Shown here one piece after another: positions 2,732 through 38,531 of a stretch of DNA of 64,000 bases. The notes beneath the pieces are model-generated. The model saw nothing but the letters and a program-made list of their open reading frames with translations. It did no database searches and was not told the DNA's origin. Source of the stretch: Microcystis wesenbergii NRERC-220 (GTDB lineage: Bacteria > Cyanobacteriota > Cyanobacteriia > Cyanobacteriales > Microcystaceae); the NCBI RefSeq assembly GCF_032027425.1, contig NZ_JAVSJA010000001.1, positions 2,741,501-2,805,500 on the forward strand. Reading direction: 5' to 3'. How positions within the stretch are numbered: the stretch's first letter is position 1; the number at the start of each line of letters is the position of its first letter. The position numbers were made by a program, and so were the translations under genes.

Positions 2732-2746
2732 GGGTTTCTTGATTCC

Positions 2747-3145: not shown

Positions 3146-3149
3146 TTTA

Positions 3150-5241: not shown

Positions 5242-5904
5242 TCAAGAATTATGGTTATTGTTGCCATTAAAACGATGACGTTCTGGAAATAGCGTGACCA
5301 ATAACTGATTGATATAGACCTTTCCGACCACAGATGCTTGATTCGGTCGGTTAGTAGTAGATGCTTGTTCTCTGGTTTCCGGAGGACTGGCCTCGGCGGC
5401 CATTTCCTCGCTATCCCAAGGACTGGCCACGGTTTCGGCGACCACTTCCTCCGCGGACGGGACTGGGGACACTTGACTGACTACGGGTTCCGGTTGTGGT
5501 AGAGGAGGCCTTTCCGGTTCCGATGGGGTTGCTGACACCTCGATGGTAATTTGACGGGAAGTATCTCCGATCAGGGAACCAGACGGCACGAGCGACATCG
5601 CTGCCACAGAAGCATTAAAAATCGTTGTGGTTGAGCCAATACAGGCATTCTCACCGATTTCACCCTGACCGACTATTAGAACACCTGTACCTAAAATTGC
5701 CCCTGCACCGATAGCAATAACACCCTGATAGGCGGTTAAAATTGTTCCCATACCCAGGCAAGCACCCGCACCGATAATTATTTGGCTATTGGGGGCTGCT
5801 CGGAGAATCACCCCCGGAGCCACGATCGCACTCTCATCAATGGTTACATCACCATTGACATAGAATTCCGAGCGGCTAATAGGTTGAACGGGGGGTAAGG
5901 ACAT
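5242..5904 (-). CDS. ccmN: Carboxysome assembly protein CcmN
   Basis: The 220-residue protein has an N-terminal left-handed beta-helix of hexapeptide repeats (residues about 15-125; I-I-x-A-G-A, I-A-I-G-A-G-A-I-L-G-T-G-V and similar), a Pro/Glu-rich linker (about 125-185), and a C-terminal amphipathic segment (VVGKVYINQLLVTLFPERH). That layout is CcmN: the helix domain binds CcmM and the C-terminal encapsulation peptide recruits shell hexamers (CcmK2). Without it Rubisco/CcmM condensates do not become enclosed. It follows ccmM by 131 bases and ends the ccm group. Confidence 0.93.
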   Translation of the reverse strand: MSLPPVQPISRSEFYVNGDVTIDESAIVAPGVILRAAPNSQIIIGAGACLGMGTILTAYQGVIAIGAGAILGTGVLIVGQGEIGENACIGSTTTIFNASVAAMSLVPSGSLIGDTSRQITIEVSATPSEPERPPLPQPEPVVSQVSPVPSAEEVVAETVASPWDSEEMAAEASPPETREQASTTNRPNQASVVGKVYINQLLVTLFPERHRFNGNNNHNS

Positions 5905-6035
5905 AATTGACAGTCACTCAGTGATCAGTGATCAGTGATCGGGGGTTAGGGGGTAGGGGTTAGAGTTTCCGGTATTTTTCCCGATCCGCCAACACCTAAC
6001 ACCTATCTCCCTTCACCGATCGCCGAGTCCTGAAA

Positions 6036-7994
6036 TTAAGGGCGTTGAATAATCGATTCGAGAACACGACGTTTCGCTTGGGAGTCAATCCCGATCAGAC
6101 GAACGTATTCCCCTTGATGGTCGCGCAGACAGGTTTCTAAAGCGGCCACCACATCGGATTCGCGACTGCTATCGATCGGGGTGCAGCTTTGCCAAGAACT
6201 GGTTTTAAAACGACGTTTATCCGCGTGTTCGGCCCCGATTTTGTGACCTTGGTTCAATAAAGAGCGAATTTGAGTGATCGTTTCTGCGGTTAAGGTACTG
6301 GTTAAAGTGGCAGTACCGCCGCTGGAGGAACCGGAAGCAGAGCTTTTGAAACTCGGTTCAGCAACGGTGGCGGTTTTACCGTTGCCATTACTAGCCACCG
6401 AACCATCGGGACGCTGGATCACCGTTTCTAAAACCCGTTTTTTGGCTTTAGCATCGATACCGAGTAAGCGGACGTATTCGCCGCTATGTTCGCGTAAACA
6501 ATCTTCCAAAGCAGTAATTACATCGGATTCGCGATTGCTTTCGATCGGAGCGCAACTCTGCCAAGAACTGGTTTTAAACCGGCGTTTATCGGCGTGTTCG
6601 GTGCCGATTTTGTAGCCTTGGGCGAGCAGGGAACGAATTTGAGCGATCGTTTCCCCACTTAAGCTACCACTGCTGCTATGACTGGCTCCGTTACTAGCGG
6701 GGGCGCTGTAGCTGCTGGCTTTGCCGCTGCCGTTACTAGCGGGGGCGCTGCCGGGGCGGTGAATAATCATTTCGACGACCCGTTTTTTCGCTTGCGGGTC
6801 GATCCCGATCAGGCGGACATACTCATCGCTATTTTCAGTCACGATCGCTTCAATATCGCGAATGATGCCCGCTTCGCTCTTGGTTTCGATCGCAGGTCCG
6901 GTTAACCAAGAACTGGTTTTAAACCGGCGTTTATCCGCGTGTTCGGTGGCGATTTTCAGTCCTTGGGCCAGCAGGGAACGCACTTGTACCGACAGGTCGG
7001 AATGGCCGTTACCGTTGCCATGACCGCCGTGGACGGCGGTGGTGGTGCGGGCCGGTTCTCCCGGGGTGTCTTCGGGGCGTTGGATAATCATTTCCAGTAT
7101 GCGCCGTTTAGCGGCGGGATCGACTCCGATCAGGCGGACGTATTCGCCTTGTAGGTCTCTGAGGGAGGCTTCTAGGGATTGGGATACCTGTTCTTCGCGG
7201 CCGCCGTCGATAAAGCCGGCACTTAACCAAGAACTGGTTTTAAAGCGGCGTTTGTCAGCGTATTCGATGCCGATCTTGTAGCCTTGGGAGAGGAGGGAGC
7301 GAACCTGCGCTCGAATGTTTGTATTTAAACTCATAGGTGTCACCGAATTTCTATATAGCGTCTCATTAGCGATGTTTATAGCGGCTGCCGGTGGAGGAGT
7401 CGCTGGGCTGTGGGCTTTGACCGGGACGCTGGGGGCGAGGTCGATATCGACAATGTGACGGGTGAAGGCTCGATCGATTTCTGTGACATCGGGTAAGCGA
7501 TCAGCCTGTTGTTGGCTGGTGATCACGGAACCGGATGGCACGAATTTACCGGCGGGGATTTCCACGTCTTGAACGAGGGCGTGCATCATGACGATGCAAT
7601 CGGCCCCGATGCGGGCATTAAAGACGGTGGAGCGAAAACCGATAAAGCAGCGATCGCCCACATAGGCAGGCCCGTGAATGAGTGCCATGTGGGTGATGCA
7701 GCTGCCCCGGCCGATCCACACCGAATATTCTCGGCCGTCATCTCCCACCACACGGCTTTTTTCTAAACCGTGGATGATTGCTCCGTCCTGAATTTTGCTG
7801 TCGTCGCCAATGTGAAAGGGGGTTCCTTCATCGGCGCGGATGGAAGTCCCCGGAGCAATCACCACTCGCGCCCCGATCTCGATAGCGCCACTGAGGTTAG
7901 AGAAGGTGTGGACTTTGGCACTCTCGTCTATGCGCGTTTCCTCTGGGGATTTGGTCCGCTTTTTCGGACTAGCCGCCGTTGTGCGGACGACCAT
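6036..7994 (-). CDS. ccmM: Carboxysome scaffold CcmM (gamma-CA domain plus four SSU-like repeats)
   Basis: The 652-residue scaffold has an N-terminal gamma-carbonic-anhydrase beta-helix (residues about 20-205) with H75, H102 and H107 at the zinc-ligand positions, then four Rubisco small-subunit-like (SSUL) modules, each with [11 protein letters not shown] and E-Y-V-R-L-(I/L)-G-(I/V)-D, joined by Gly/Ser/Ala-rich linkers. SSUL modules crosslink Rubisco into the nascent carboxysome. I do not see the late-domain Cys pair reported for redox-active CcmM anhydrases, so the enzyme activity is uncertain. The first ATG has a strong GGAGGA (8003-8008). An internal ATG at 7334 (residue 221), preceded by GGTGA, would give the short CcmM form of four SSUL repeats. 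Confidence 0.96.
7332..7345 (-). promoter_or_regulatory. Internal translation start for the short CcmM isoform
   Basis: On the minus strand GGTGA precedes an in-frame ATG (codon 7334-7332) by five bases, immediately before the first SSUL module ([15 protein letters not shown]). Beta-cyanobacteria make a short CcmM from an internal start; this site sits exactly where that start is expected and would yield a 432-residue protein. It is predicted from sequence and family knowledge, not measured. Confidence 0.6.
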
Positions 7995-8064
7995 AGTTAG
8001 TCTTCCTCCATACTGAATTTGGCTGGCTGGTTGTTAATTAACTGTGTTTGGGTCCTATCGATGT

Positions 8065-8376
8065 TTAACCGGATTGACGAAATTCGTCTCTCTTGCTGTA
8101 GAGGGTGCGATTTTCTACGGTTATAGTGTCAATAATCCCCACCACCATCGCGTCAAGGGGGCGATTGTTCTGCCCGTCTTCGATCCGAGCTGCTCCTCCC
8201 CGGGACACTAGCACCCATTCATTAATCCCCGCTCCGACAATATCACCCGCTACTTCGTATTTAGGCAAAAGTTGCCCTTGAGCGTCGATGAATTGCAAAA
8301 GCAGAAGTTTCACTCCCGTCATACTGCGCGGTTTCAGGGTGCTAACGACGGTTCCGCAAACTTTGGCAATTTGCAT
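8065..8376 (-). CDS. ccmL: Carboxysome vertex pentamer protein CcmL
   Basis: The 103-residue protein is an EutN/CcmL (Pfam00936-unrelated) pentamer: MQIAKVCGTVVSTLKPRSMTG at the N-terminus, L-L-L-L-Q-F-I-D-A, the G-A-G-I-N-E-W-V-L-V-S-R-G-G-A-A-R core with pore-lining residues, and MVVGIIDTI near the end. Five copies close each of the twelve icosahedral vertices. It sits between ccmK1 and ccmM with spacers of 32 and 70 bases. Confidence 0.96.
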   Translation of the reverse strand: MQIAKVCGTVVSTLKPRSMTGVKLLLLQFIDAQGQLLPKYEVAGDIVGAGINEWVLVSRGGAARIEDGQNNRPLDAMVVGIIDTITVENRTLYSKRDEFRQSG

Positions 8377-8408
8377 GGAATTTGTTTACACTAAAAGTTA
8401 GTTGCGCT

Positions 8409-8750
8409 CTAGATTCGTCTTAAAGGTTGCGGGTTAACACTTTCACGAAACTGTTCCACGGCTTCTGTATAACGAATGGGAAGAACGTATTCGAGGTTTT
8501 CGTGGGGACGGGCGATGATGTGGGTCGAGAGGACTTGACCACCTTTAACACGATTAGATGCCGCTTCTGTCCCCGCCGATACGGAGGCCTGTACCTCCGA
8601 AACGTCTCCTCGGACGATGACGGTGACGCGACCACTACCAATTTTTTCGTAACCTACTAGGGTTACGCGGGCGGCTTTCACCATGGCATCGGCCGCCTCG
8701 ACGACGGCTGGGAAACCCAAGGTTTCCACCATGCCCACTGCAATTGACAT
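8409..8750 (-). CDS. ccmK1: Carboxysome shell hexamer protein CcmK1
   Basis: The 113-residue BMC-domain protein starts [21 protein letters not shown] chose this ATG because TAGGAGA lies directly upstream at good spacing (8761-8767) and because every CcmK begins here. An upstream in-frame ATG would add 20 residues unlike any BMC protein. The body ([22 protein letters not shown]) is nearly identical to the neighbouring CcmK2. The longer tail ([11 protein letters not shown]) is the usual difference of CcmK1. Hexamers tile the shell facets and pass bicarbonate and RuBP through the pore. Confidence 0.95.
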
Positions 8751-8816
8751 AATATTTTTGTCTCCTAATGGTTGGCTTTCTTCGACTCTATAGATGCTGA
8801 CCCCGATCAACGGTGT

Positions 8817-9128
<312 letters not shown>

Positions 9129-17786: not shown

Positions 17787-18482
17787 TTAAATTTCTTCGG
17801 GGTTAATATTTAATTCCCGTAGTTTTGCCGCTAACCTTTCGGCCCGTTGTCGTTCCACTTCAGCCCGTTGTCGTTCCGTTTCGGCCCGTTGTCGTTCCGT
17901 TTCGGCCCGTTGTCGTTCTTGGTTGTAACTGGTGAAAGGTTGACCATCGGGATAATACAAGAGTAACTCTGGTTCGGCTAATTGAAAACGAATGCCCAAG
18001 CGAGGACTGACCCAATTATCGAGATTTTCCAGACTTTCGAGCCGATTTTCCCGACGAATACAGCCGCCCAAATCATTTTTATCGGGATTATAAATGTAGT
18101 ATTCTTCCACACCATAACGGTCATAAAACAGTAGTTTTCTGGTCATTTCCGTTTGGGTATTACCCGGAGAGAGAATTTCAAAAACCACTTGCGGGGGGAT
18201 ATTGTTCTCTTTCCACTGTTGATAGGAACCCCTTTCCCCTTTTGGTCTGCCAAAAGCTACCATGACATCGGGTGCTTGCCGAGTCTTATTATCTCCCTCC
18301 ACGGGATACCAGAGTAAATCACCGGCGACAAAAACATCGGCATTATTGGCAAATAACCAGTCTAAATTCGCTTTAATCGTCGTAATCCAGCGAAATTGTC
18401 TTGTATTGTCGGCCATGGGTTTACCATCGCTATCGGGATAGACGATTGTGGTTTTCGGGCTGTCGTCGAGTTGTCTAACCAT
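17787..18482 (-). CDS. Uma2 family (DUF820) putative endonuclease
   Basis: The 231-residue protein is a Uma2-type PD-(D/E)xK superfamily member: VFVAGDLLWYP, A-P-D-V-M-V-A-F-G, Q-V-V-F-E-I-L-S-P-G-N, then K-L-L-F-Y-D-R-Y-G-V-E-E-Y-Y-I-Y-N-P. These proteins are greatly expanded in cyanobacteria; most have no known function. The C-terminus is a charged coiled coil of seven-residue units (QRAETER repeated) encoded by 21-bp tandem DNA repeats at 17839-17919, so its length is likely variable between strains. It stands alone, convergent with the histidine kinase gene. Confidence 0.88.
   Translation of the reverse strand: MVRQLDDSPKTTIVYPDSDGKPMADNTRQFRWITTIKANLDWLFANNADVFVAGDLLWYPVEGDNKTRQAPDVMVAFGRPKGERGSYQQWKENNIPPQVVFEILSPGNTQTEMTRKLLFYDRYGVEEYYIYNPDKNDLGGCIRRENRLESLENLDNWVSPRLGIRFQLAEPELLLYYPDGQPFTSYNQERQRAETERQRAETERQRAEVERQRAERLAAKLRELNINPEEI
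17839..17919 (-). repeat. 21-bp coding tandem repeat in the Uma2 gene
   Basis: Four near-identical 21-bp units (TCGGCCCGTTGTCGTTCCGT and variants) encode QRAETER/QRAEVER heptads. Whole-codon unit length means copy changes keep the frame. Confidence 0.85.
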
Positions 18483-22216: not shown

Positions 22217-23443
22217 CTACACCTCGATCTCTCCATTCATAAGTTTCGGAAGTAGTATGTCACGCGCTTGTTTTAGTTTTTGATTGTATTTATGCAATAG
22301 AGAGCGTTGTTTTAACGCTGGCTCGACTACATCATTAAATAATCTAAGAAGAGTTTTATTAGGAGTAAGTATATGCAAGCCTCTTAAAAATTTCAAACTA
22401 AAAAACTTTTGTGATGTTCCAGAAGACTGAATTTCCATTTTTCTTAAAGTAGCAGGATCGGAAAAATATAAAAACATAAAACTAGAATAGTTTTTGTCAA
22501 AAGGTTTAAATAAAGCTACATTTTTTATACTAAACTCGAATTCATTATCTACCAAAACCGTTGAACCTAATGTCCCGATATTTGAAAAAATTATATCTCC
22601 TGTTTCTGGTCTGCTCCTTTGCATAACCTTTTGATGGTCTTCATCAGTAATCACATAGCATTTAGAAAAATCAATAAAACCATCTGTTATATGTCTTCCA
22701 GTTACTAAATAGTATCCTTCATGTACGGGTTTAGGACTATCGTGAGTTCCATCAATCACATAACATAAATTAGTAATTTTTGTATTCTCCCACCCTTCAG
22801 GAATACCATCGATAATCGGGGTGTGTTCGTGTCCGGGGAAGCGTAAACGGACGAACCATTCCTTGTAAAGTAAACGGGCTGAACGTTCTAATAACTCGAT
22901 GCGGCGGCGATTATTTTCGATTAAATCATCATATTTGGAGAGGATATCGGCGATTTTCTGTTGAACTTGTAGAGGCGGTAAAGGTACTAAACAACGATAA
23001 ATACGTTCTGGTGCTGTATGTTTTACGGTTGTACCTGTAGCCGAGCCTTTGATTTGCGATCTATAATTATGCGTGTTTAATAAATAATAAAGGTATTTTT
23101 TATCAAGTTCTTTTTGATTTAGAATATTAACCAATCCTAATCGTTGATTATGCAAGTATTTTTCATTTTCTGGAATTAGCAACGCACCGCCCAGAATTGG
23201 AGCAGACTGAACCAAATCTGTCATAACTACGAGCAAATCATTTTGATGCAATATAAACTCTTCTGGTACATCACCAACATAATATTTTTCCTTGTCTCCT
23301 TTTAATTTTAATCCCCCTGTTTCATGGCAATTACCCGGAGTAAGTAAAATATATTTTCCTGAATCCGAGAAAAATTCACCCTTAAAAGCGAACCCATGTT
23401 TTATATATATTTGAGATCCTAAAGCAACTTTTGACCATTTCAT
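22217..23443 (-). CDS. hsdS: Type I restriction-modification specificity subunit S
   Basis: The 408-residue protein has two target-recognition domains, each followed by a conserved helix: PLPPLQVQQKIADILSKYDDLIENNRRRIELLE after the first (about residues 150-185) and LLHKYNQKLKQARDILLPKLM at the end. The TRDs fix the two halves of the recognition sequence, which cannot be read from protein alone. Base composition in parts of the gene is more AT-rich than in hsdM and hsdR, as is common for TRDs exchanged by recombination. It lies 68 bases after hsdM. Confidence 0.94.
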   Translation of the reverse strand: MKWSKVALGSQIYIKHGFAFKGEFFSDSGKYILLTPGNCHETGGLKLKGDKEKYYVGDVPEEFILHQNDLLVVMTDLVQSAPILGGALLIPENEKYLHNQRLGLVNILNQKELDKKYLYYLLNTHNYRSQIKGSATGTTVKHTAPERIYRCLVPLPPLQVQQKIADILSKYDDLIENNRRRIELLERSARLLYKEWFVRLRFPGHEHTPIIDGIPEGWENTKITNLCYVIDGTHDSPKPVHEGYYLVTGRHITDGFIDFSKCYVITDEDHQKVMQRSRPETGDIIFSNIGTLGSTVLVDNEFEFSIKNVALFKPFDKNYSSFMFLYFSDPATLRKMEIQSSGTSQKFFSLKFLRGLHILTPNKTLLRLFNDVVEPALKQRSLLHKYNQKLKQARDILLPKLMNGEIEV

Positions 23444-27936: not shown

Positions 27937-28364
27937 CCCTAAAGCTTGCCTCGGTTATTGGTGAACTATCCTAGCCACGTCTGTTAAACTTTTGCTAGGA
28001 ACGAATCGCAGGCCTTAGTTGGAATTTGTCAGCTAAGACGCATTTTAACCGCCTATCCTTAGATTAGCTCTTGCAAAAATCAAAAATCTCCCGTTAGGTG
28101 AGGAGTCTCCGAGCCAGTAGTCAGTAGTCAGGAGAATTAAGAATGAGCATTAATCAATTAAATGCTCTATTTAGGGATTTTAGGCAATTTTATGCCTATT
28201 TTTCTCATTTTTGAATATCAAAAATTAATTATGCAAGAACTCTATAGTCTAAAATTAGAGGAAAAGGATAGGATGGGTTGAAACCCGTCGAGTCGCATTT
28301 CATCCATTGCTTAAAAAGACAATGGCTTTCATGCTCCCGTGTTATTTTGGTAAAAAAATCAACC
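27937..28364 (+). other. Spacer with half of a family A element
   Basis: At 28031-28068 a single family A end (AGCTAAGACGCATTTTAACC, then CCTTAGATTAGC) is present without its partner. The rest holds no ORF. A TATAGTCT box near 28240 could be a -10 element for the following GTPase gene. Confidence 0.45.
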
Positions 28365-29729
28365 GTGACTAAGACCCCATCCCTCCAGGAAACTCATTAC
28401 AATCAGGCCAAAGCTAGTTTACAACAGGCCTTAACTTGGTATGCCAGTTTTCGCCGCCATTGGAATTATCCCCCCGATCCCCAACTTCAGGCCGCCGTTA
28501 AACAGGATTTACAGTCCCTAAAATCGGCCTTGGATAAACTGGATGAAACGGTGATTCGGGTGGCGGCCTTCGGGTTAGTCAGTCGCGGTAAATCCTCGGT
28601 GGTAAACGCTTTAGTCGGTCAAAAAGTCCTGGCAACCGGCCCCCTACACGGGGTGACACGCTGGCCGCGATCGGTGCGTTGGACACCAGCCACGGGTAAA
28701 ATTCAGATAGAATTAATCGATACTCCCGGACTGGATGAGATTGAGGGGGAAGCACGGGCGAATATGGCCAGAGAAGTCGCTAAAAGTGCCGATTTGATTT
28801 TATTTATCGTCGCGGGGGATATTACCCGCACTGAATACGAGGCCCTGGCAGAATTGCGCCGGGCCAAAAAACCGATCATTTTGGTGTTTAATAAGATTGA
28901 TCTCTATCCGGAAGCCGATCGCCGTCAGATTTTTCAGCAGTTACAGCGATTAGGAACCAATCAGGACGAAAAAACGTTAGAAGATTTGTTAACTAGCGAT
29001 GAGATAGTTATGGTAGCCGCCGAACCGCAACCGATTCCCGTCCGGGTGGAATACCCCGATGGGCGCGTGGTGACTGAGTGGGAAACCCCTCCCCCCGAAA
29101 TTGAGGAGCTGCAAGATAAACTCTTAACGATTTTAAATCGGGAAGGGCGCTCGCTGCTGGCCTTAAATGCTTTAGTGCAAGGCCAAGAAGCGGAGGAAAA
29201 TATCGCTAGAAAAACCCTGGAACTCCGGGACAGTCAAGCGGAGGAAATTATCTGGCAATACGCGAAATATAAGGCTTTAGCGATTGCGGCTAATCCGATC
29301 GCTATTTTAGACCTCCTAGGGGCTTCAATCGTCGATTTGACTCTAGTTCGGGCTTTAGCTCGTTTGTACGGCCTGCCGATTACCAGTCACCAAGCTGGTC
29401 AACTCTGGCGGACTCTACTTTTCAGTAGTGCGGGGTTGCTGGTGGGGGAAATCCTCAGCACTGTGATTATCGGTTTGGGCAAAACGGCAGCGGCAGCGGC
29501 GAGTATTTTTGAAAATCCCACCTCTTTAACCCTCTACGGTAGCACCGCTCTCCTACAGGGGGCAATTGCTGCTTATGGAACCTATACCATCGGGAAAGCC
29601 GCTAAAATCTATCTAGAACGCGGTTGTAGTTGGGGGGCATCTGGACCGAGTACGGTGATTAATCAAATTCTCGCTCAAGTTCATCCGCAAACTATCTTAT
29701 ATCGTTTACGTCTAGAACTAGAACAGTGA
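28365..29729 (+). CDS. Era-like GTPase with C-terminal DUF697 domain
   Basis: The product is 454 residues from GTG 28365 (MTKTPSLQETHYNQAK); an upstream in-frame TTG at 28278 would add 29 residues of unconvincing sequence. The G domain is intact: GLVSRGKSSVVNAL (P-loop), DTPGLDEI (DxxG) and FNKIDLY (NKxD). DUF697 follows with membrane-prone helices (ANPIAILDLLGASIVDLTLVRALA; FSSAGLLVGEILSTVIIGLG). The protein is probably peripheral or integral to a membrane. It is paralogous to the gene at 12766-14178, which lost a G motif. Function is unknown. Confidence 0.85.
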   Translation: MTKTPSLQETHYNQAKASLQQALTWYASFRRHWNYPPDPQLQAAVKQDLQSLKSALDKLDETVIRVAAFGLVSRGKSSVVNALVGQKVLATGPLHGVTRWPRSVRWTPATGKIQIELIDTPGLDEIEGEARANMAREVAKSADLILFIVAGDITRTEYEALAELRRAKKPIILVFNKIDLYPEADRRQIFQQLQRLGTNQDEKTLEDLLTSDEIVMVAAEPQPIPVRVEYPDGRVVTEWETPPPEIEELQDKLLTILNREGRSLLALNALVQGQEAEENIARKTLELRDSQAEEIIWQYAKYKALAIAANPIAILDLLGASIVDLTLVRALARLYGLPITSHQAGQLWRTLLFSSAGLLVGEILSTVIIGLGKTAAAAASIFENPTSLTLYGSTALLQGAIAAYGTYTIGKAAKIYLERGCSWGASGPSTVINQILAQVHPQTILYRLRLELEQ

Positions 29730-29861
29730 TTTTAAAGGAAAAAGGAAAAAAGGCAACAGTGATCAATTAAATATTTCCTACTGACTCCTGATGACCGACT
29801 CCTAATTTTAGAAACTTAATTTTTGACAACGACCACTAGCTAGAAATATTGAGAGAAAATC

Positions 29862-30383
29862 ATGTCTGCTGCCCATAAGTCCTATATTCCTGTTCCCGTT
29901 TCTCGCCAAAAAAGCCAAGGGAGTCAACGCCGTCCCCAATCACCAGTAAATCAGGCGACCCCAATGACCAAACCGACGACTAAATCGGTGGCGAGAGTTC
30001 CCGTAGCCCCGACAGAAAAACAAGTGGCCTCGCGTCAATTACGTTCTCTTTGCCTCCTAGAAAGAATAGTGGCCGTGATTACTTTTTGTCTGTTGGGTTC
30101 GACTCTGGGAATATATGCTTGGACGGTATATATTCCCAAGGTTTGGGACAAAGAATTTGGTAAACTGGAAACACTGCAACGTCACGAGCGCCATCTTTTG
30201 GCCACCAATGAAACCCTTAAACATCAACTAGCTCAACAAGCAGAAAAACCCGAAACTGGATTAACTCATCCCCAACCCTTCCAAAATATCTTTTTACAGC
30301 GTAAATCTGCCCCGAACCTGAAACCGGCCCCCGCTTCTCAACCCCAATCTACCGTCAATTCTCGACCCAGAAGTGCCTATTAA
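29862..30383 (+). CDS. Small bitopic membrane protein, candidate cyanobacterial FtsL
   Basis: The 173-residue protein has a basic, Pro/Thr/Ser-rich cytoplasmic N-terminus (1-65), one membrane helix (about 69-90, ERIVAVITFCLLGSTLGIYA), then a short heptad-like helix (KLETLQRHERHLLATNETLKHQLAQQ) and a Pro-rich tail. That is the topology of FtsL: short cytoplasmic part, one TM and a periplasmic coiled coil. It lies directly upstream of ftsI, the standard position of ftsL in bacterial division clusters. No sequence signature proves it; the assignment rests on topology and context. Confidence 0.6.
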   Translation: MSAAHKSYIPVPVSRQKSQGSQRRPQSPVNQATPMTKPTTKSVARVPVAPTEKQVASRQLRSLCLLERIVAVITFCLLGSTLGIYAWTVYIPKVWDKEFGKLETLQRHERHLLATNETLKHQLAQQAEKPETGLTHPQPFQNIFLQRKSAPNLKPAPASQPQSTVNSRPRSAY

Positions 30384-30557
30384 CAGTTATCAGTTATCAG
30401 TTATCAGTGGGTAAGTTAACAGTTAGCAGATGTGAGTTTTTAAGTGTGCAGTATTAAATAGAAGTTTCCTACTGTCTTTTTACTTTTTACTTTTTACTTT
30501 TTACTGATCACTGATTACTGTTTACTGATCACTGATTACTGTTTACTGATAACTGAA
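30382..30557 (+). repeat. AGTTATC and TTTTTAC/TGATTACTG tandem repeats upstream of ftsI
   Basis: AGTTATC heptamers (30382-30409) and ACTTTTT plus CTGATTACTGTTTA units (30475-30557) sit between the FtsL-like gene and ftsI. They end about a dozen bases before the ftsI start, so they are within its leader if the genes are co-transcribed. Confidence 0.8.
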
Positions 30558-30568
30558 AGATACTGCTC

Positions 30569-32422
30569 ATGACTGACACAAAAAGACCCAGATTTAGAGG
30601 TAAAGAAACTCGATCGCCCTCCGGCAGGATCCGGGACAGAAAGTCCTATTTAACCGCCAAAAAACGGCAAAAACAGTTAAAAAATTTGCCTGTGAGTAAC
30701 GGGCGATTGGTGGCGGTGTGGTTGGTTTTAGTCATGGGTATTTTGGGTTTAGCTTGGCGATTGTACCAATTGCAAATAGTACAGGCGCAGGAATTACAAA
30801 AAAGAGCCAGACAACAGCAAACTACAAGTATTAGACCCTATATTCCCCGGCGGGCGATCGTCGATAGTAATGGTAATGTTTTGGCGACCGATCGCTTAAT
30901 TTATACTCTTTATGTACACCCAAAACTGTTTGCTATTCCCCCAGCAGAAGTGGCTGATAAATTAGCTCCTTTATTAAATATTCCCACTAATCAACTCATT
31001 CAAAAATTTAAAGAAAAAGAAACAGGAATTCGTTTAGCCAATCAATTAACTGAATCCGTGGCTAGGGGCTTAAAACAATTATCTCTTGACGGTGTAGAAT
31101 TAGAGGAAAAATACGCTCGTTATTATCCCCAAGACGATGTGGCAGCCGACGTGATTGGCTATGTAGATAAAGAACATCGTGGCCAAGCAGGATTAGAACG
31201 AGGTTCCAGTCAGTTATTAGAAAGATCTCCTTTTTCTGTCAATACAAGACGCATGGGAGACGGGAGAATTTTACCTATTTTTGTTCCCCATGGTATCTTT
31301 CAATTTGATGAATTACAGTTAGAAGTAACCCTCGATTTAAAACTACAAAGAGCCGCCCGCACAGCCCTACGAGAACAGCTAAAAAAATTTAATGCTAAAC
31401 GGGGAGCCGTCATCGTTATGGACTCCCTTGATGGTTCTCTTTTAGCCCTAGTTTGTGAGCCAACTTTTAACCCCAATGAATACTATAAAGCCAATGTGGC
31501 TCTATTTAAAAATTGGACCGTAGCCGATCAGTACGAACCGGGGTCAACTTTTAAACCAATTATTATCGCCCTGGCCATGAAAGCAGGGGCAATTAAAGCT
31601 AATACAGTAGTCAATGATCCGGGGGCAATTAAAGTCGGTACCTGGACGATTAAAAATGCCTCTAAACAGGGTTATGGGGCGCTAGATATGGCCCGAGTCC
31701 TGCAAACCTCTAGTAACGTGGCCATGGTGCAAATTGCCCAAAAAATGGGGCGAGTTGATTTCTATAAAAGTTTATTAGGATTGGACATAAATCAAAGGGT
31801 TGGTGTAGATTTACCCGGGGAAGTGTCAGGATATCTCAAACCCGAACAACAATTTCTGGATAATGCCATTGAATCGGCCACCGCTTCCTTTGGTCAAGGT
31901 TTATCCCTGACTCCTTTAAAATTAGTACAATTGCACGGTGCGCTGGCCAATGGTGGCACCTTGGTAACTCCCCATGTGATCAAAGGATTAGCCGACGACC
32001 GCGGCCGTTTGCACTGGCAGCCCGATTATCCCAGCAAAAAAGTCTTTTCTCCCACCGTGGCCCGGCAAGTGGTGGAAATGATGGAAACCGTCGTCAGCAA
32101 GGGGACGGGGGTAGCGGCCCAAATCCCCGGTTATCGCATCGGAGGCAAAACGGGAACCGCACAAAAAGCTAGTTCGACGGGGGGTTATCTACCTAACGCC
32201 AAAATTACCAGTTTTGTGGCGATTTTACCAATCGAATCGCCCCGTTATGTGGTTTTGGTGGTGGTGGATGAACCCAAGGGGGCCAATACTTTTGGCTCCA
32301 CTGTTGCCGCTCCGGTGGCAAAAACGGTGATGAATACGCTCATTTCCCTCAAGGGTATCCCCCCCACCTCCAAGGTCGCTCCGGCGGCTTCTGCGACCAA
32401 TAAACCCCCGCGGCACGATTAA
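30569..32422 (+). CDS. ftsI: Peptidoglycan D,D-transpeptidase FtsI (PBP3)
   Basis: The 617-residue class B penicillin-binding protein has a basic cytoplasmic N-terminus, one TM helix (about 46-66, AVWLVLVMGILGLAWRLYQL), a pedestal domain (RPYIPRRAIVDSNGNVLATD) and a transpeptidase domain with the active-site SxxK (GSTFKP), SxN (SSN in QTSSNVAM) and KTGT (GGKTGTAQK). It crosslinks septal peptidoglycan. It follows the FtsL-like gene by 185 bases of repeat DNA. The C-terminal tail after the domain is Ala/Pro-rich. Confidence 0.95.
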   Translation: MTDTKRPRFRGKETRSPSGRIRDRKSYLTAKKRQKQLKNLPVSNGRLVAVWLVLVMGILGLAWRLYQLQIVQAQELQKRARQQQTTSIRPYIPRRAIVDSNGNVLATDRLIYTLYVHPKLFAIPPAEVADKLAPLLNIPTNQLIQKFKEKETGIRLANQLTESVARGLKQLSLDGVELEEKYARYYPQDDVAADVIGYVDKEHRGQAGLERGSSQLLERSPFSVNTRRMGDGRILPIFVPHGIFQFDELQLEVTLDLKLQRAARTALREQLKKFNAKRGAVIVMDSLDGSLLALVCEPTFNPNEYYKANVALFKNWTVADQYEPGSTFKPIIIALAMKAGAIKANTVVNDPGAIKVGTWTIKNASKQGYGALDMARVLQTSSNVAMVQIAQKMGRVDFYKSLLGLDINQRVGVDLPGEVSGYLKPEQQFLDNAIESATASFGQGLSLTPLKLVQLHGALANGGTLVTPHVIKGLADDRGRLHWQPDYPSKKVFSPTVARQVVEMMETVVSKGTGVAAQIPGYRIGGKTGTAQKASSTGGYLPNAKITSFVAILPIESPRYVVLVVVDEPKGANTFGSTVAAPVAKTVMNTLISLKGIPPTSKVAPAASATNKPPRHD

Positions 32423-32508
32423 TTTAAGTCTTTTTGACAGAGGCTTTATCTAACAAAGCACAGAGAAATATTATGGGGCTGTCATTCCCATTTCGATCCA
32501 TACTTCTA

Positions 32509-33153
32509 TCAAATCTCGTATAACCCCTGTAACCATCTCAAAAAAATTGCCGATTGGGGATGGGAGCGATTAAGTATTCTTTGTTTTACTGCATCGTGAA
32601 GTTGTTTCCCCGGCGGATCTTGCCAAGCTAAATAGGTATGAATATTAGCCTTATCTAGATGATAATCCCTATAGGTTGCCCCTTGTTGTTTTGCCTCTAT
32701 CACCTTGTTTTGTGTATATTGCCAAAGATTATTATCGGGAACTAAATAGGCTAAAAAAGTCTCTAACATTCCTCTAGATTGATTATCGGGCATCATCCAC
32801 ACACCGAATTTTATCCCCGATTCTAGAGTTATAATTAATCCCTCTGCTGGTAAATTTTGAGGTAAGTTAGGTATATTTGGTAAACAGGCATTATATAAAC
32901 TTTTCCAACGATTATCAGGTTCTTCGTCCGCATCCATAATAATTCCTAAATGAGTTAGTCCACTATCATTGATTTCGTTGTAAATATTATCGCTATCGAG
33001 TAAATTCTCAATACCATCAGTCGGTTTAATATAGATAATAGCTGTGTCTTTTTTGTCTCCCCAAGAGATGCCATGGGCTTCTGCTAATTCGGGAATCACT
33101 CTCATTTCTTCTCTTCCCTCTACCAAGAGTTTTTTAGGATGTATTTTGGGCAT
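32509..33153 (-). CDS. TOPRIM-like DUF3226 family protein, partner of the AAA ATPase
   Basis: The 214-residue protein starts with KLLVEGREEMRVI (E12, the TOPRIM motif I glutamate pattern) and has IIMDADEE with D74 and D76 (the TOPRIM DxD pattern). The middle and C-terminus (GVWMMPDNQSRGMLETFLAYLV) match DUF3226-type proteins. TOPRIM folds cut or bind nucleic acids with Mg2+. It starts two bases after the stop of the upstream AAA ATPase gene, so the two should be co-translated and interact. The pairing resembles OLD, PARIS and related AAA/TOPRIM immunity systems; the function here is inferred. Confidence 0.8.
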   Translation of the reverse strand: MPKIHPKKLLVEGREEMRVIPELAEAHGISWGDKKDTAIIYIKPTDGIENLLDSDNIYNEINDSGLTHLGIIMDADEEPDNRWKSLYNACLPNIPNLPQNLPAEGLIITLESGIKFGVWMMPDNQSRGMLETFLAYLVPDNNLWQYTQNKVIEAKQQGATYRDYHLDKANIHTYLAWQDPPGKQLHDAVKQRILNRSHPQSAIFLRWLQGLYEI

Positions 33154-33155
33154 TT

Positions 33156-34265
33156 TTAGCGAACCTCAACATCTCTTTCAGAAGCGAGGTAAATTTGTCT
33201 AGTATTGAAGGAAACTGCTTTTTCCTTGTCCCTATCTATCCTTTGAATAGTAATCTCGTTATCGGTAATTTTTTCTTCGGTAATTAATTCGGCTAAACTT
33301 TGCCAACAATCCCGGCTGTGAGTGGTGGCAAATACCTGAATATTGAGTTTTTTGGCGATTTCCCAGACGAATTTCCACATATCAGTCATGACAGTAAAGT
33401 GCAATCCGCTATCAATTTCATCAACTAATAAAATTCCATTTTCAAGATTAACCATCGCTAAAACTAATCCTAACATTCGCCAAAATCCATCACCTAAACT
33501 GCCAATCGGAACTGGTTCTTCTACTCCTTTAAGTTTAACCATAAATCCCCCACGTCCTCCCGATGTCCTACTAAATACTGGAGGTTGAAATTCTTCGGTA
33601 GTCGCAATTTTTTCTATTTTAGGTTCAATGATTTTTAAAGCTTCAATAACTAGGTTATCCGTAGAGTTAAGCAGACTTTGACTGAAAAAATATCTGTTTG
33701 CCTCAACTGCTATAGATTGAGGAGGAATCCAAGATAATTCTAGTTTTTCAAAATCCTGAGACGGTTTTTTATCAGTTAAATTTATCTGTAAAATATCCCC
33801 TTCAGGTGATAAAGAATAGACTTTTTGCTGATGCTCAAATTCAACTACCAAGCAAAAACTACCCAGGGATTGCAAATTATTATTATTGACTTTAGAGAGT
33901 AATTCTTTAGATGTAGATTGAATACTTAAAATCACCTGATTGGCTGGTTTATCTGGCTCATAAATAACTATTTTTTGATTATCCTTTAGTAAGTATTTAT
34001 AGAATAAATTTTTTATCTGATAAGATTGCCAGGGATTACCGGGAAAATTAGCCGCATCTATTTCTCTATGAGAATACTCGCCCCGATGATTAAGAATTTT
34101 TTGTATTTTTCCTATATCAAATTTAGAAACATAAATAAGAATCGCTTCTAAAATAGAAGTTTTGCCGCTATTATTTTTACCTACTAAGAGATTAATGCGA
34201 CCAAGATTGGCCATCTCAAAATTTTGAAAACCGCGAAAGCCTTCAATTTTTAGGGATTGTAACAT
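33156..34265 (-). CDS. AAA ATPase of the ABC/SMC-like (AAA15/21, OLD) type
   Basis: The 369-residue protein begins MLQSLKIEGFRGFQNFEMAN and has Walker A VGKNNSGKTS (residues about 28-37), the signature-like GSLGDGFWRMLGL, Walker B GILLVDEIDSGLH and the H-switch FATTHSRDCW. These are hallmarks of the OLD/RecF-like ATPases that work in anti-phage and DNA-repair modules. There is no fused nuclease domain; that role falls to the TOPRIM protein encoded just downstream. The pair reads opposite to ftsI and ends in a convergent junction. Confidence 0.87.
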   Translation of the reverse strand: MLQSLKIEGFRGFQNFEMANLGRINLLVGKNNSGKTSILEAILIYVSKFDIGKIQKILNHRGEYSHREIDAANFPGNPWQSYQIKNLFYKYLLKDNQKIVIYEPDKPANQVILSIQSTSKELLSKVNNNNLQSLGSFCLVVEFEHQQKVYSLSPEGDILQINLTDKKPSQDFEKLELSWIPPQSIAVEANRYFFSQSLLNSTDNLVIEALKIIEPKIEKIATTEEFQPPVFSRTSGGRGGFMVKLKGVEEPVPIGSLGDGFWRMLGLVLAMVNLENGILLVDEIDSGLHFTVMTDMWKFVWEIAKKLNIQVFATTHSRDCWQSLAELITEEKITDNEITIQRIDRDKEKAVSFNTRQIYLASERDVEVR

Positions 34266-34328
34266 CAGTGATTACCCCGGATTTTAGTTATTAAATCTAG
34301 TTTATCTCAACCCCAGAAAACACCTCAA

Positions 34329-34781
34329 TTAACGACAGAGCATCACGATGGCGATACCGATACCCAAACTTAAACCGACCAGCACTTGAAAAGGAGTATG
34401 ACCAATTAATTCCTTTAAACGTTCCTCGTTAAATTCCTTGCCCTCCTGGAACATTTCATCGATAATTTGATTGAGAATCCGGGCCTGTTTTCCGGCTGCC
34501 TGACGCACTCCGGCCGCATCATACATAACAATAACCGCAAAAAGCGCGGCGATGGCAAATTCGGGACTAGACCAACCCATCTGTAATCCTACCCCAGTAG
34601 CCAAGGCTCCCACCAGCGCCGAGTGAGCGCTAGGCATTCCTCCCGACGAGACTAGATAGCGCAGACTCACCTTACCATCCCGGATTAACTCAATCAGCGC
34701 TTTTAGTCCCTGGGCAGTGAAACAAGCTAAAAGAGAGACTAGCAGTATTTGATTGTGTAACACCTGCTCGAAGTCCTGCAT
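34329..34781 (-). CDS. DUF212 (divergent PAP2 family) membrane protein
   Basis: The 150-residue protein has about four hydrophobic segments and the family motif GMPSAHSALVGALATGVGLQMG (PSAHS as in PAP2 phosphatases), R-x-A-G-x-Q-A near residue 95, and LIGHTPFQVLVGL at the end. It is related to acid phosphatase/vanadium haloperoxidase folds, but the substrate is unknown. It starts 17 bases after the crtE stop on the same strand, so the two are probably co-transcribed; a role with polyprenyl phosphates is a guess from context. Confidence 0.85.
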   Translation of the reverse strand: MQDFEQVLHNQILLVSLLACFTAQGLKALIELIRDGKVSLRYLVSSGGMPSAHSALVGALATGVGLQMGWSSPEFAIAALFAVIVMYDAAGVRQAAGKQARILNQIIDEMFQEGKEFNEERLKELIGHTPFQVLVGLSLGIGIAIVMLCR

Positions 34782-34798
34782 AATCTCATTCGTTTAAT

Positions 34799-35728
34799 TT
34801 AATTTTTACGATTAACAATATACTCGGCGATGGCCCGTAAAGGTTCAGCGGCCTCATCGTAGCTACTCAATTCACCGATGGCACTGTCTATTAACTGTTG
34901 AGCTTGCTGGCGGGATCCTTCTATCCCCCAGAGACTAGGATAGGTAGCTTTTTGTGCCTGTAGATCCTTACCGGCGGTTTTGCCCAATTCCTCCATTGTC
35001 GCCGTGATATCGAGAACATCATCGATAATTTGGAAAGCCAAGCCAATATTTTGAGCGTAACGGTCTAATTTAGCTATATCTTCCGCTTTTGCCCCCGCTA
35101 AAACTGCCCCCGACACCACAGAAGTCTCCAACAGGGCCCCCGTTTTGTGAGTATGGATAAAACCGAGAGTTTCCGCCGAAATATCGGGTTTTCCTTCGGA
35201 TTCCAAGTCTAAAACCTGACCTCCCACCAAACCCGCTGCCCCGACAGTGCGACCTAAACGGGCAATTACCTCTAAAATCTGTACAGGAGGTACATTACGA
35301 GTCTGGGTAGCCACATACTCGAAAGCGTAGGCCAGGAGACCATCCCCAGCTAAAATAGCGATATCTTCGCCAAAAACCTTATGATTGGTTAATTTCCCGC
35401 GTCGGTAATCATCGTTATCCATGGCGGGTAAATCGTCATGAATTAATGACATAGTGTGAATCATTTCTAGGGCGCAAGCGGTGGGTAAAGCCATCTCTAG
35501 GGAACCGCCCATCAGTTCACAGGTAGCCAGACATAAAATCGGCCGCAGACGTTTGCCACCGGCGAGGAGAGAATAGCGCATCGCCTCGTAGATTTTGGCA
35601 GGATTGCCGATAACTAAAGAGCTATCCAAAGCTGACTCGACAATTAACCGCTTTTCCTCCAGATAGGAAGCCAGAGAAAAGCTCTCGTTTTTCCTCACTT
35701 CTACCCCTTGTTCGCCCCTAGTAACCAT
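34799..35728 (-). CDS. crtE: Geranylgeranyl diphosphate synthase
   Basis: The product is 309 residues from the ATG at 35728; an in-frame GTG at 35779 would add 17 residues not typical of the family. It has both prenyltransferase aspartate motifs: [14 protein letters not shown] (first DDxxxxD) and IIDDVLD (second DDxxD), plus GGKRLRP and KTGALL. It condenses DMAPP/FPP with IPP to C20-PP, feeding carotenoids, phytol and quinones. It is followed closely by the DUF212 gene. Confidence 0.93.
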
Positions 35729-36138
35729 GTCTTTTTGTCTTGAACCGACTGCTTTTAAAACTATATCAGGAAACTCCACCTCGATCAGAATTAAACTGAC
35801 TGCTCCCTTGTCCCCTAAGCTGTTGACTATCTAAATTACCCCTTCAGACTGCATGGGAATGCCGGAGTTGACAGTCTGAGCATTTGTACTAAAGTTTTCC
35901 AGACGGAGAGAGGTCAATTTTCTTTTCTGATGCCTATTTTCTCTTTTAACCTGAAAAAATACCTCCCTCAGCCTGGTCCAGGAATTGGCGAAAAACGGGC
36001 GATATAATTGAATTTCACCGCAGTTATCAGGGGAAATGCTAAAGTTTTGATGATTCGGTCAAACTTCCGTTTTCTTAGCTTGCGGTTTGGAAATTTCTCG
36101 ATTAGCCTAGAAGTAGGATTCTCCTAGGAATATATTGT
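35729..36138 (+). other. Divergent spacer between crtE and the kinase gene
   Basis: These 410 bases carry promoters for both directions. At 35878-35906 the sequence GAGCATTTGTACTAAA, then TTTTCCAGACG, matches one upstream of clpB (41800-41827). A CCTAGGAATATATTG stretch precedes the kinase ATG. No ORF is supported. Confidence 0.45.
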
Positions 36139-37536
36139 ATGCTGACAGGGCAAATTTTAGGCGATCGATACCAAATTCAAAGTCAGTTAGGTAAACAAAC
36201 CGGAAGACGCACTTTTCTCGCCCAAGATCTAAAAACGGGCGCTACTGTTGTCGTCAAATTATTAATCTTCAGTCCCGATTTTGAATGGACAGATTTAAAA
36301 CTTTTTGAACGGGAAGCCGAAACTCTTAAACATCTAGATTGTCGCTCGATTCCTGAATATATCGACTATTTTGAAGTTCGCACCGATACCTATCAAGGTT
36401 TTGCCCTTGTTCAGAGTTATATCGAGGCTAAATCTCTCAAGGAACAGATAGAAACTGGTCGCAAATTTAGTGAAGCAGACCTGCAAGAATTAGCTAAATA
36501 TATCCTAGGTATTTTAATTTATCTCCATGGACTTAACCCGCCAATTATCCACCGGGATTTGAAACCTAGTAATATTTTATTAAAAGATCGCTCGGGCCAT
36601 AGTATCGGCAATGTTTATTTAATTGATTTTGGTTCTGTCCAGACTGTTGCCCAACAGGAACAGGCCACTTTAACTATTGTCGGAACCTACGGTTATATGC
36701 CCCCCGAACAATTCGGTGGTCGCACCGTTGCCGCTTCTGATTTATACAGTTTAGGAGCCACTTTAATCTATCTAGCTACAGGCATTCATCCCGCCGATTT
36801 ACCGCAGAAAGATGGCAAAATTCAATTAAATAATTTAGCTAATTTAAGCCCTGCTTTTGTTCATTGGTTAGGGCAGCTAATCGAACCTAGTCTCGAAAAA
36901 AGGTTTATTTCAGCACAGGCGGCAAATCAAGCTTTAAATACTCTCCACGAAATGCAATTAACTTCCTCAAACCTTGAAAAACCCTCCGGGAGTCGGGTAC
37001 AATTGCAAAAAAACGAGGAGAAAATTAAAATATTTTTACCCCCCGAAGGTTTTACCCCTAAATTAATTTTTCCCGGAACCTTTGCCATTGCTTGGAACGC
37101 TTTTTTATTAGTATGGACAGGAGGAGCCATTTCTATTCCTCTGTGGATGAGTTGGTTTTTTCTGCTCTTTTCCTTGCCTTTTTGGTTTGTGGGTTTAGGA
37201 ATGCTTGGCGGGATTATTTATTGTCTCAAAGGGGAGGAAATTATCACTATTGATAGGGAAGAAATTGTTGCCTATCAGCGAATTTGGGGTTTGACACTTC
37301 CGGGTAAAAAGAAAATGGCACGGGAACATATTAATAAACTGGTGAAAGCTGATAGTTATCATACCAAAGATGACGATGGCGATCGAGTTTATGTACCGAT
37401 GGCTTTAACTATTTGGGCAGGGACTAAAGAATATACTATTAGCAGTCAGACAAAAGCCTATCTGAGTAAACCCGAAATTGAATGGTTAGCGGCGGAATTA
37501 AGCCAATGGTTAGGAATGCCAATTACTAATAAGTAG
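36139..37536 (+). CDS. Serine/threonine protein kinase with C-terminal membrane region
   Basis: The 465-residue protein has a Hanks-type kinase domain (residues about 10-265): VVVKLL with the ATP-binding lysine, IIHRDLKPSNILL catalytic loop, LIDFGSV, and GTYGYMPPEQFGG. After a linker come two membrane helices (about 315-365, FAIAWNAFLLVWTGG; SWFFLLFSLPFWFVGLGML) and a C-terminal beta-rich domain seen in many cyanobacterial kinases. The TAG stop (37534-37536) lies within a family B repeat, which encodes the last two residues (NK). Confidence 0.92.
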   Translation: MLTGQILGDRYQIQSQLGKQTGRRTFLAQDLKTGATVVVKLLIFSPDFEWTDLKLFEREAETLKHLDCRSIPEYIDYFEVRTDTYQGFALVQSYIEAKSLKEQIETGRKFSEADLQELAKYILGILIYLHGLNPPIIHRDLKPSNILLKDRSGHSIGNVYLIDFGSVQTVAQQEQATLTIVGTYGYMPPEQFGGRTVAASDLYSLGATLIYLATGIHPADLPQKDGKIQLNNLANLSPAFVHWLGQLIEPSLEKRFISAQAANQALNTLHEMQLTSSNLEKPSGSRVQLQKNEEKIKIFLPPEGFTPKLIFPGTFAIAWNAFLLVWTGGAISIPLWMSWFFLLFSLPFWFVGLGMLGGIIYCLKGEEIITIDREEIVAYQRIWGLTLPGKKKMAREHINKLVKADSYHTKDDDGDRVYVPMALTIWAGTKEYTISSQTKAYLSKPEIEWLAAELSQWLGMPITNK

Positions 37537-37627
37537 CTGTGCAAAATTAATTTCCTGGTTAGGAAAGGCAACAGGCACAAGGCAAGAGGTAGTTAGATAT
37601 GTGTAATTAATTTTGCTTAGGTACTTA
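37530..37627 (+). mobile_element. Family B MITE-like element, copy B3
   Basis: This 98-base copy has the same TAAGTA plus GCAAAATTAATT ends as B1. The kinase gene's final codons and TAG stop fall inside the left end, just as B1 supplies the miaB stop. Confidence 0.8.
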
Positions 37628-37955
37628 ATAAGTAATCTTACAGCCATCAGCCTTGAATCAGTTATCAGTTATCAGTTACCAGTGCTCAGATTTGAGTTTT
37701 TAGTTCATTGATTACTGTTTACTGTTTACTGATAACTGAAAAATCTCCCCACTCCCCCACTGATTACTGATTACTGCTTACTGATAACTGAAAAAGCTTC
37801 CCACTTCCCACTTCCCTCCCCCTGATATGGACGAACTGTCTGTGATCGGTGTAAAATTTTATGAAGAGTCTCGGCTTTTTTCTCCCTTTTCCTGAGAAAT
37901 GCCCCAGAGCCAGTGACTAAGATCAAAATTGTGCATCCCATCGATAATTAAGTTT
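37628..37955 (+). repeat. Heptamer-rich spacer upstream of def
   Basis: CAGTTATCAGTTA, TTTACTGATAACTGA, CTGATTACTG and CCCACTTCC repeats fill 37655-37820. The last 130 bases, which should hold the def promoter, are unique. No gene is seen. Confidence 0.65.
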
Positions 37956-38531
37956 ATGAGCGCCACTATTACCGTAGAAAAACGCAAATTAGAAAAACCC
38001 CCTTTAGAACTGCATTATCTCGGCGATCGAGTCCTGCGTCAACCGGCCAAGCGGATTGCTAAAGTCGATGACAGCATTCGTCAATTAGCCAGAGAAATGC
38101 TGCAAACTATGTATAGTGCCAATGGTATCGGGTTAGCAGCCCCGCAAGTGGCAGTCAATAAACAATTGATTGTCATCGATTGTGAACCTGATAAACCCGA
38201 AAATACGCCACTAATTCTGATTAATCCCCAAATTATCGGTTATAGTCGGGAATTGTGCAAAGCGGAGGAGGGTTGTTTGAGTATTCCCGATGTGTTTTTA
38301 GATGTCATCCGTCCCCAATCGATCGAAGTGAGTTATAAAGATGAACAGGGCAAACCGCGAAAACTGCAAGCTAACGGTTTACTAGCGCGGGTAATTCAAC
38401 ACGAAATGGATCATCTTAATGGTGTCATGTTCGTGGATAGAGTAGATAACGATTTGGCACTCAATGAAGAATTAAAAAAACACGGTTTTTCCGTGCAAGC
38501 GGTGAAACCCGTCGAGAAAGTGTCAAAATAA
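37956..38531 (+). CDS. def: Peptide deformylase
   Basis: The product is 191 residues from ATG 37956 (MSATITVEKRKLEKPPLEL); an in-frame TTG at 37929 is less likely. All three deformylase motifs are present: GIGLAAPQV (motif 1), EEGCLSIPD (motif 2, metal-binding Cys) and IQHEMDHLNGVMF (motif 3, HExxH). It removes the formyl group from nascent chains. Motif EGCLS and the length fit type 1B/1A bacterial enzymes. Confidence 0.95.
   Translation: MSATITVEKRKLEKPPLELHYLGDRVLRQPAKRIAKVDDSIRQLAREMLQTMYSANGIGLAAPQVAVNKQLIVIDCEPDKPENTPLILINPQIIGYSRELCKAEEGCLSIPDVFLDVIRPQSIEVSYKDEQGKPRKLQANGLLARVIQHEMDHLNGVMFVDRVDNDLALNEELKKHGFSVQAVKPVEKVSK

Follow-up and report, generated by a model that had tools for sequence, protein, structure and literature searches.

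Within a 64,000-nucleotide stretch of the Microcystis wesenbergii NRERC-220 genome (contig NZ_JAVSJA010000001.1, positions 2,741,501 to 2,805,500; hereafter the window) lies a two-gene module that encodes an OLD/RecF-type AAA ATPase and, directly downstream, a protein of the DUF3226 family. Both genes were recovered from the DNA as an original prediction had described them, the ATPase with its Walker A and Walker B motifs and the 214-residue partner with E12 in a VEG context and the D74-A-D76 pattern (Table 1). The ATPase stop codon and the ATG of the DUF3226 gene are separated by 2 bases. Around this junction, the conserved C-terminal E-V-R codons of the ATPase hold GAGGT in most copies of the pair and GAAGT or GAAAT in some; the end of the ATPase gene thereby doubles as a ribosome-site-like element, which fits translational coupling to DUF3226, and the conservation of these three residues may in part serve the ribosome site of the downstream gene. 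A promoter scan gave 8 sites (8.0 expected) and a terminator scan 1 (2.1 expected).

Table 1. Position in the window of the ATPase/DUF3226 pair, its motifs and cassettes, and the flanking and control genes
Feature	Position	Strand	Remark
OLD/RecF-type AAA/ABC ATPase, 369 aa (amino acids), first gene of the pair	33156..34265	-	best PADLOC match PDC-M38A
DUF3226 protein, 214 aa, second gene, probable TOPRIM nuclease by its sequence	32509..33153	-	best PADLOC match PDC-M38B
Walker A VGKNNSGKTS, ATPase residues 28-37	34155..34184	-	DNA read back
Walker B LLVDEIDSGLH, ATPase residues 279-289	33399..33431	-	DNA read back
E12 of DUF3226 (in VEG; TOPRIM glutamate)	33118..33120	-	invariant in 45/45
D74-A-D76 of DUF3226 (TOPRIM DxD)	32926..32934	-	DNA read back and relatives' alignment
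E131 of DUF3226, acidic, nearly invariant	32761..32763	-	
K168 of DUF3226, lysine, nearly invariant	32650..32652	-	
GAGGT within the conserved C-terminal E-V-R codons of the ATPase, Shine-Dalgarno-like	33163..33167	-	9 bases to the DUF3226 ATG
Cassette 1, ATPase middle, residues about 43-252, here type I	33510..34139	-	borders approximate (end of identity)
Cassette 2, last ~24 ATPase codons, junction and first ~64 DUF3226 codons, here type alpha	32962..33230	-	borders approximate
Penicillin-binding-protein-like (PBP-like) gene, flank	30569..32422	+	name inferred from sequence
DUF212/YuiD gene, flank	34329..34781	-	present in 59/59 relatives
HsdS of the type I restriction-modification (RM) operon, natural positive control, outside the pair	22217..23443	-	internal replaced block

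Of 12 Microcystis genomes, 11 carry the window's version of the pair; only G007 lacks it. Presence or absence is therefore not the main variation within the genus; the exchange of internal cassettes is. Cassettes were typed from an alignment of ten genus copies and from sliding DNA identity, in which their edges are about one sliding step-window wide. The two ends of the ATPase are nearly identical among the genus copies (97-98% in the pairs measured), and the middle between them exists as two types, I and II, that are 20-23% identical to each other, type II being carried by 6 of the 11 copies. A second cassette, with types alpha and beta, forms one block across the gene junction, and its beta type occurs in 4 of the 11. 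Outside these regions DNA identity mostly lies between 90 and 100%; it drops to 36-74% within cassette 1 and, at the core of cassette 2, to 55-72%. All four combinations are present, namely I-alpha (G000, G001 and G059, the last typed because it is 91.6% and 96.3% identical to the window copy), I-beta (G003, G010), II-alpha (G002, G005, G006, G009) and II-beta (G004, G008), from which it follows that the two blocks have recombined. The type II middles are a further mosaic, with identities of 78-100% between G002 and G004. At the protein level, the window DUF3226 is 69-96% identical to those of other Microcystis loci (7 of 12 named loci found).

Exchange of this kind is not restricted to the window locus. 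At a second pair locus of the genus (in G000 near 239-241 kb), 80-base windows along the ATPase body are 85-100% identical, and two types, P and Q, are distinguished by a block that comprises about the last 19 ATPase residues and DUF3226 minus its last about 20 residues. P and Q share 46-68% DNA identity, and their flanks mostly 92-100% (the downstream flank of G006 differs). Type P was found in 5 of 11 genomes (G000, G003, G004, G005, G008) and type Q in 6 (G002, G006, G007, G009, G010, G059), so that G000 and G059, which belong to one species, differ here; in G001 no pair was found, the flanks lying on two contigs. At this locus the putative nuclease is swapped and the ATPase retained, and the swapped block again starts in the ATPase tail.

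The same pattern recurs outside the genus. A replication set of loci from 20 further genomes was hand-picked among the better-scoring matches in the phylum, and 15 of them belong to one family (f25), apparently Nostocaceae-type. Of the 105 pairwise comparisons among these loci, 83 show an identity of at least 85% in the ATPase C-lobe, and the loci display four middle types and five DUF3226 N-half types in eight combinations, including all four of middle types 1/2 with N-half types 1/2. G190 and G077, for instance, have middles that are 95% alike and DUF3226 proteins that reach only 41% and 59%; G268 and G077 share tail and DUF3226 at 95-98% and the middle at only 42%. Among those 83 locus pairs, loci with the same DUF3226 N-type have tails that are 83% identical, versus 63% for those of different type, and C-lobes at 93% versus 90% (27 versus 56 locus pairs, which are not independent).

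As a control, replaced blocks were sought in 31 window genes, each with one or more orthologs in the fetched DNA, over 151 retained comparisons; a block was defined as at least 40 internal columns below 60% identity between windows of at least 85%; the control left out 17 window genes that lack an ortholog in that DNA, as well as comparisons that involved paralogues or failed the length filter. An internal replaced block appeared only in HsdS (2 of 2 comparisons) and in the ATPase of the pair (6 of 9). DUF3226 showed an N-terminal block in 2 of 7 comparisons (G003, G004), truncated copies having been removed by the length filter. The other 28 genes contained no replaced block, a single terminal flag in G006 being an open reading frame (ORF) start difference, and the immediate neighbours of the pair are free of cassettes as well (YuiD 95-99% in 9 comparisons, PBP-like gene 95-97% in 4). 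HsdS is known for exchanged recognition domains and thus serves as a natural positive control; it is only 39% identical in G006 and G010, where HsdM and HsdR reach 97-99%, which is ordinary specificity exchange. The pair resembles HsdS in that variable domains are swapped between constant parts at a fixed locus. In contrast to HsdS, it is an ATPase-effector pair in which one variable block spans the gene junction, and no DNA-recognition domain was found in it.

The alleles themselves look old. Copies in two other genera share 35-39% identity with the type II middle, which is about 20% identical to type I, and in the DUF3226 part alpha and beta each resemble different outside genera, so that the types appear to predate the genus. 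The outside locus L097 has a tail nearer beta (50% versus 46%) and a DUF3226 part nearer alpha. Silent cassettes feeding a programmed switch were rejected as the source of the alternative types at the window locus, as no second copies were detected in the genus genomes searched: the type II middle had none in five type I genomes, the type I middle none in six type II genomes and G007, the beta N-half was absent from seven alpha genomes and G007, and alpha DUF3226 had no second copy in four beta genomes, while P and Q were not searched for silent copies. From the lack of second copies together with the conserved ends we infer exchange with incoming DNA by homologous recombination.

The two segments joined in cassette 2 also covary across relatives. 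Between the ATPase tail and the N-half of DUF3226, distances corrected for the rest of the pair gave a partial r of 0.46 in 43 pairs, 0.88 in 15 close pairs, and 0.68 in 10 pairs with two Microcystis representatives; for 26 loci from other genera, of which 18 were absent from the first set, it was 0.45. Each of these values was reached by 0 of 2000 permutations. The ATPase middle covaries with neither segment.

With regard to family assignment, the partner matches Pfam PF11536 (DUF3226) over its whole length (expectation value, E, 2.3e-63) and the ATPase matches AAA_15 (6.8e-24); NCBIfam offers no family for the 214-residue protein. Both proteins correspond to a catalogued PADLOC candidate, PDC-M38, the ATPase to PDC-M38A (PDLC04611; residues 1-369, full length, 2.4e-84) and the partner to PDC-M38B (PDLC04624; residues 4-213, full length, 6.5e-68), a model that is matched by 45 of 45 DUF3226 relatives. 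Other PADLOC matches of the ATPase are AbiLi (9.3e-54) and, lower, AriA (4.8e-29). The profile search that the original prediction had proposed therefore led to the DUF3226 and PDC-M38 families, and not to PARIS, AbiL, Gabija or a retron.

DUF3226 is likely a TOPRIM protein, judging from motifs and weak profile matches. OLD-type TOPRIM sites use, beside the E...DxD pattern of TOPRIM nucleases, further acidic residues and a lysine. In the 45 aligned relatives E12, D74, G128 and L130 are invariant, and D76, E131 and K168 are conserved in at least 90%, in agreement with the E...DxD pattern. The window protein scores 0.042 against the Pfam OLD-like_TOPRIM model, which is sub-threshold. Searched against the Protein Data Bank, the family profile retrieves 2p62, a protein of unknown function (5.8e-4), and AriB without significance (0.84); as a single sequence the window protein has no match there (best 0.3). 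The predicted pairing of an AAA ATPase with a TOPRIM protein thus stands as regards the ATPase, the DUF3226 identity and the motif pattern, and the fold is suggested by those motifs and profile matches.

Two-gene relatives of known function offer a mechanistic frame. In PARIS (AriA/AriB, class 4 OLD), AriB is held by a ring of AriA until set free by a phage protein, whereupon it cuts tRNA-Lys (PMC11455837; an excerpt of PMC12409363). The present pair shares with PARIS the separate genes for an ABC ATPase and a TOPRIM protein, here a probable one, and, likely, ATPase sensing followed by nuclease release. It differs in that its partner belongs to DUF3226 rather than DUF4435/AriB and its ATPase is nearer M38A than AriA. 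PARIS was rejected as an assignment, as the window partner has no AriB or DUF4435 match and the AriB model finds 4 of the 45 members (best 0.0018), DUF4435 one (0.021). AbiL (AbiLi/AbiLii, with an RloB-type TOPRIM) is described in an excerpt of PMC10440598 as a two-gene abortive infection system with a TOPRIM_OLD effector, and the same excerpt reports that two AAA ATPase antitoxins with TOPRIM_OLD toxins passed toxicity-neutralisation assays. Our ATPase matches AbiLi well; AbiL was set aside on the partner, since the window DUF3226 has no RloB or AbiLii match and AbiLii is found in 1 of 45 members (2.1e-5). Class 1 OLD, Gabija (class 2) and retron Eco8 (class 3) likewise combine ABC ATPase and TOPRIM-like parts of related sequence, but in one gene instead of two. 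For Gabija, the genes here are separate and no GajB helicase is present, the neighbours being the PBP-like and DUF212 genes; for an Eco8-type retron, there was no Rfam match at gathering score in 28000-38000 and no reverse transcriptase among the neighbours searched. PDC-M38, by comparison, has the same ATPase and the same DUF3226-type partner in adjacent genes, with full-length matches, and no feature tested differs.

We favour, at a probability of roughly 0.6, an abortive-infection toxin-antitoxin (TA) module of the PDC-M38 kind whose parts are reshuffled by homologous recombination. This is preferred because published relatives have ATPase antitoxins and because the putative nuclease is broken more often than the ATPase: of 22 copies at the two genus loci, 5 have a broken DUF3226 and 1 a broken ATPase (where DUF3226 is broken too), small numbers that include drafts or metagenome-assembled genomes (MAGs). 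The ATPase would be made first and the DUF3226 nuclease right after it, probably via translational coupling; the ATPase would keep the nuclease inactive, partly through its C-terminal tail, until its release or activation by a trigger that is made by the phage or linked to infection and that the middle domain of the ATPase would sense. The nuclease would then cut nucleic acid (tRNA or DNA), by which the infected cell would be stopped. The constant ATPase ends would act as homology arms through which incoming strain DNA replaces cassette 1 or 2, the middle being the sensor, and tail plus nuclease a matched effector unit. More tentatively, and at somewhat less than even odds, the pair may be viewed as a combinatorial innate-immune receptor in which the constant ends supply frame and arms, the middle sets the signal, tail and nuclease set the response, and old trans-genus alleles are reassorted.

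Several observations weigh against this reading of the pair as a reshuffled module of abortive infection. No copy was found in 50,697 phage records, none was confirmed in viral contigs, and on plasmids weak matches (21-32% identity) occurred on only 9 of 72,556. Neighbours show no evident excess of defence matches (75 ORFs beside 38 related pairs versus 72 random ORFs; best 25 of 79 families for the neighbours and 25 of 59 for the random set, with one Microcystis genome as control). Counting of exchange events is limited by the sample of 12 genus genomes and by a flank tree of three genes that is too poorly supported for the purpose; the changes on that tree, 4 and 2, compare with shuffled means of 3.9 and 3.5 and are not informative. 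Since tail and DUF3226 N-half are contiguous on the DNA, their covariation may be linkage and not contact. The third pair locus of the window's genome shows no large swap in the 3 genomes compared, with only a short stretch of 70-81% identity in G003. Among the Nostocaceae-type loci, DUF3226 N-half identity is 68% with the same middle versus 54% with a different one, so that middle and effector do not vary wholly freely.

Among the alternatives, a direct defence of the Gabija or OLD kind fares best, though we think it unlikely: here an ATP-gated nuclease would cut phage DNA without TA logic, and the cassettes would diversify the recognition of DNA or of inhibitors. The ATPase profile matches the structures of PtuA, OLD and GajA, and OLD-like_TOPRIM is matched, with an E of 1 or lower, by 19 of the 45 DUF3226 members, the best at 1.3e-5. 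The genus furthermore contains a 660-residue protein with the same ATPase type at its N-terminus, in which residues 397-469 match DUF3226 at 7e-4, short of the Pfam cut-off (hhalign E 1.5e-4 with a probability of only 51%). Set against this, no helicase partner adjoins the pair, its genes are separate as in PARIS and AbiL, where the ATPase holds a TOPRIM toxin, and breakage falls more often on the nuclease gene, as it would for a toxin, with the small and partly draft or MAG sample noted above. The 660-residue protein itself is encoded at L156:5270-7252, and weak DUF3226-like matches in frames of about its length were seen in 6 of the 11 genus genomes.

A recombination-prone genus might also exchange any locus, with diverged alleles persisting by chance or through partner compatibility only. 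The conserved ends are natural homology arms, and the poorly supported flank tree may reflect wide recombination, but we regard such neutral mosaics as improbable, because none of the 28 other window genes shows replaced blocks, the allele types look older than the genus, and the exchange recurs at a second locus and in another family.

The distribution of the pair bears on two further explanations. The 59 relatives yielded 79 DUF3226 places, partly fragments or weak matches, and 50 of these loci were fetched; the ATPase gene lies directly upstream on the same strand in 50/50 (49 by ORF script and one, L091, whose DUF3226 has an internal stop, by tblastn) and in 20/20 further cyanobacterial loci, which establishes strict gene coupling. 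Part of the pair copies are partial or broken. Occurrence is patchy: DUF3226 exceeds the Pfam cut-off in 35 of the 59 relatives and in 65 of 386 genomes drawn from the phylum, so that conservation in all cyanobacteria at this locus without presence/absence variation, the outcome that the original prediction had named as speaking against itself, does not hold. A purely selfish addiction module with no defence role would suit the tight pairing, the linkage of tail and partner and the several paralogous pairs per genome (three in the window's genome); it would not lead one to expect a middle that is replaced again and again beside a tail-effector block of unchanged type, nor a pair nearly fixed in the genus, and we consider it a rather poor candidate. 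A house role in repair or chromosome maintenance, as an excerpt of PMC12796447 reports for the archaeal OLD protein Cran1, would agree with near fixation in Microcystis and is nonetheless very improbable, given that most cyanobacteria searched do not have the pair, that it is missing or broken in several genomes, and that it is diversified like HsdS and unlike 28 other window genes.

Two unusual ATPase copies were seen among the relatives. One, a family member of 300 residues encoded at L106:4864-5763, has a middle that is very short; of one relative it matches residues 1-64 and 233-375 only, and it may be a nearly minimal form that occurs in nature. The ATPase in L098 that seems broken beside an intact DUF3226 is an open frame without a usual start codon.

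In its surroundings, yuiD adjoins the pair in 8 of the 11 genus copies and the PBP-like gene in 6, both doing so in four (G000, G005, G009, G059). In G004, G006 and G008 only a yuiD fragment is left beside the pair, a chromosomal rearrangement having separated yuiD from it with duplication of fragments (L070, L071, L073, L074, L076, L077); the first 22 ATPase codons lie beside the intact yuiD in G004 and G008, and the yuiD fragment lies beside the pair in all three. No PBP-like gene was seen beside the pair in G001, G002, G003 and G010 within the DNA read, which ends early in some. Six of six genomes examined from other genera have yuiD and crtE with no pair between or beside them.

As regards the wider setting, the type I RM locus that the original prediction had placed 7 kb away is there (its hsdM ORF ends at 25569). 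The loose defence island drawn from it was not supported, as the neighbours are without evident defence excess in the tally given above and housekeeping-type genes set the RM operon apart; the immunity-system reading has partial support from the match of both genes to the candidate PDC-M38 and none from an island setting. The two TA remnants reported in the window probably correspond to a Gp49-type gene (930-1286) and a HicB-like gene (1924-2241), about 30 kb from the pair. The Gp49-type gene with its 103-residue follower and the HicB-like gene (930-2241) adjoin a RuBisCO/carboxysome cluster (2396-9128). Beside the RM operon, a 231-residue protein (17787-18482) has a modest match to PADLOC PDC-S03 (2.1e-11). 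Elsewhere in the window, a 625-residue AAA protein (60591-62468) matches PADLOC IetA models (4e-39 over residues 171-430), although it is perhaps just an ordinary AAA protein.

The gene pair itself is already catalogued as PADLOC candidate PDC-M38 (M38A and M38B), one of a set that, according to an excerpt of PMC12988326, comes from a guilt-by-embedding survey and is mostly unvalidated; neither PDC-M38 nor DUF3226 is named in the open-licence PMC literature searched, and the titles and abstract beginnings searched there do not suggest cassette exchange in ATPase/DUF3226 pairs. The new part is the combinatorial cassette exchange, not the pair. ATPase/TOPRIM pairs are widespread, and how the ATPase recognises its signal and holds the nuclease is known for few of them. 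Recombinants that occur in nature show which parts are exchangeable, namely the middle as candidate sensor and the tail with the nuclease as candidate docking and effector unit, and they turn the question of specificity in this class of proteins into one that can be addressed with chimeras already made by nature. In a bloom-forming genus, these findings point to a system of the defence type whose diversification resembles that of a restriction specificity subunit.

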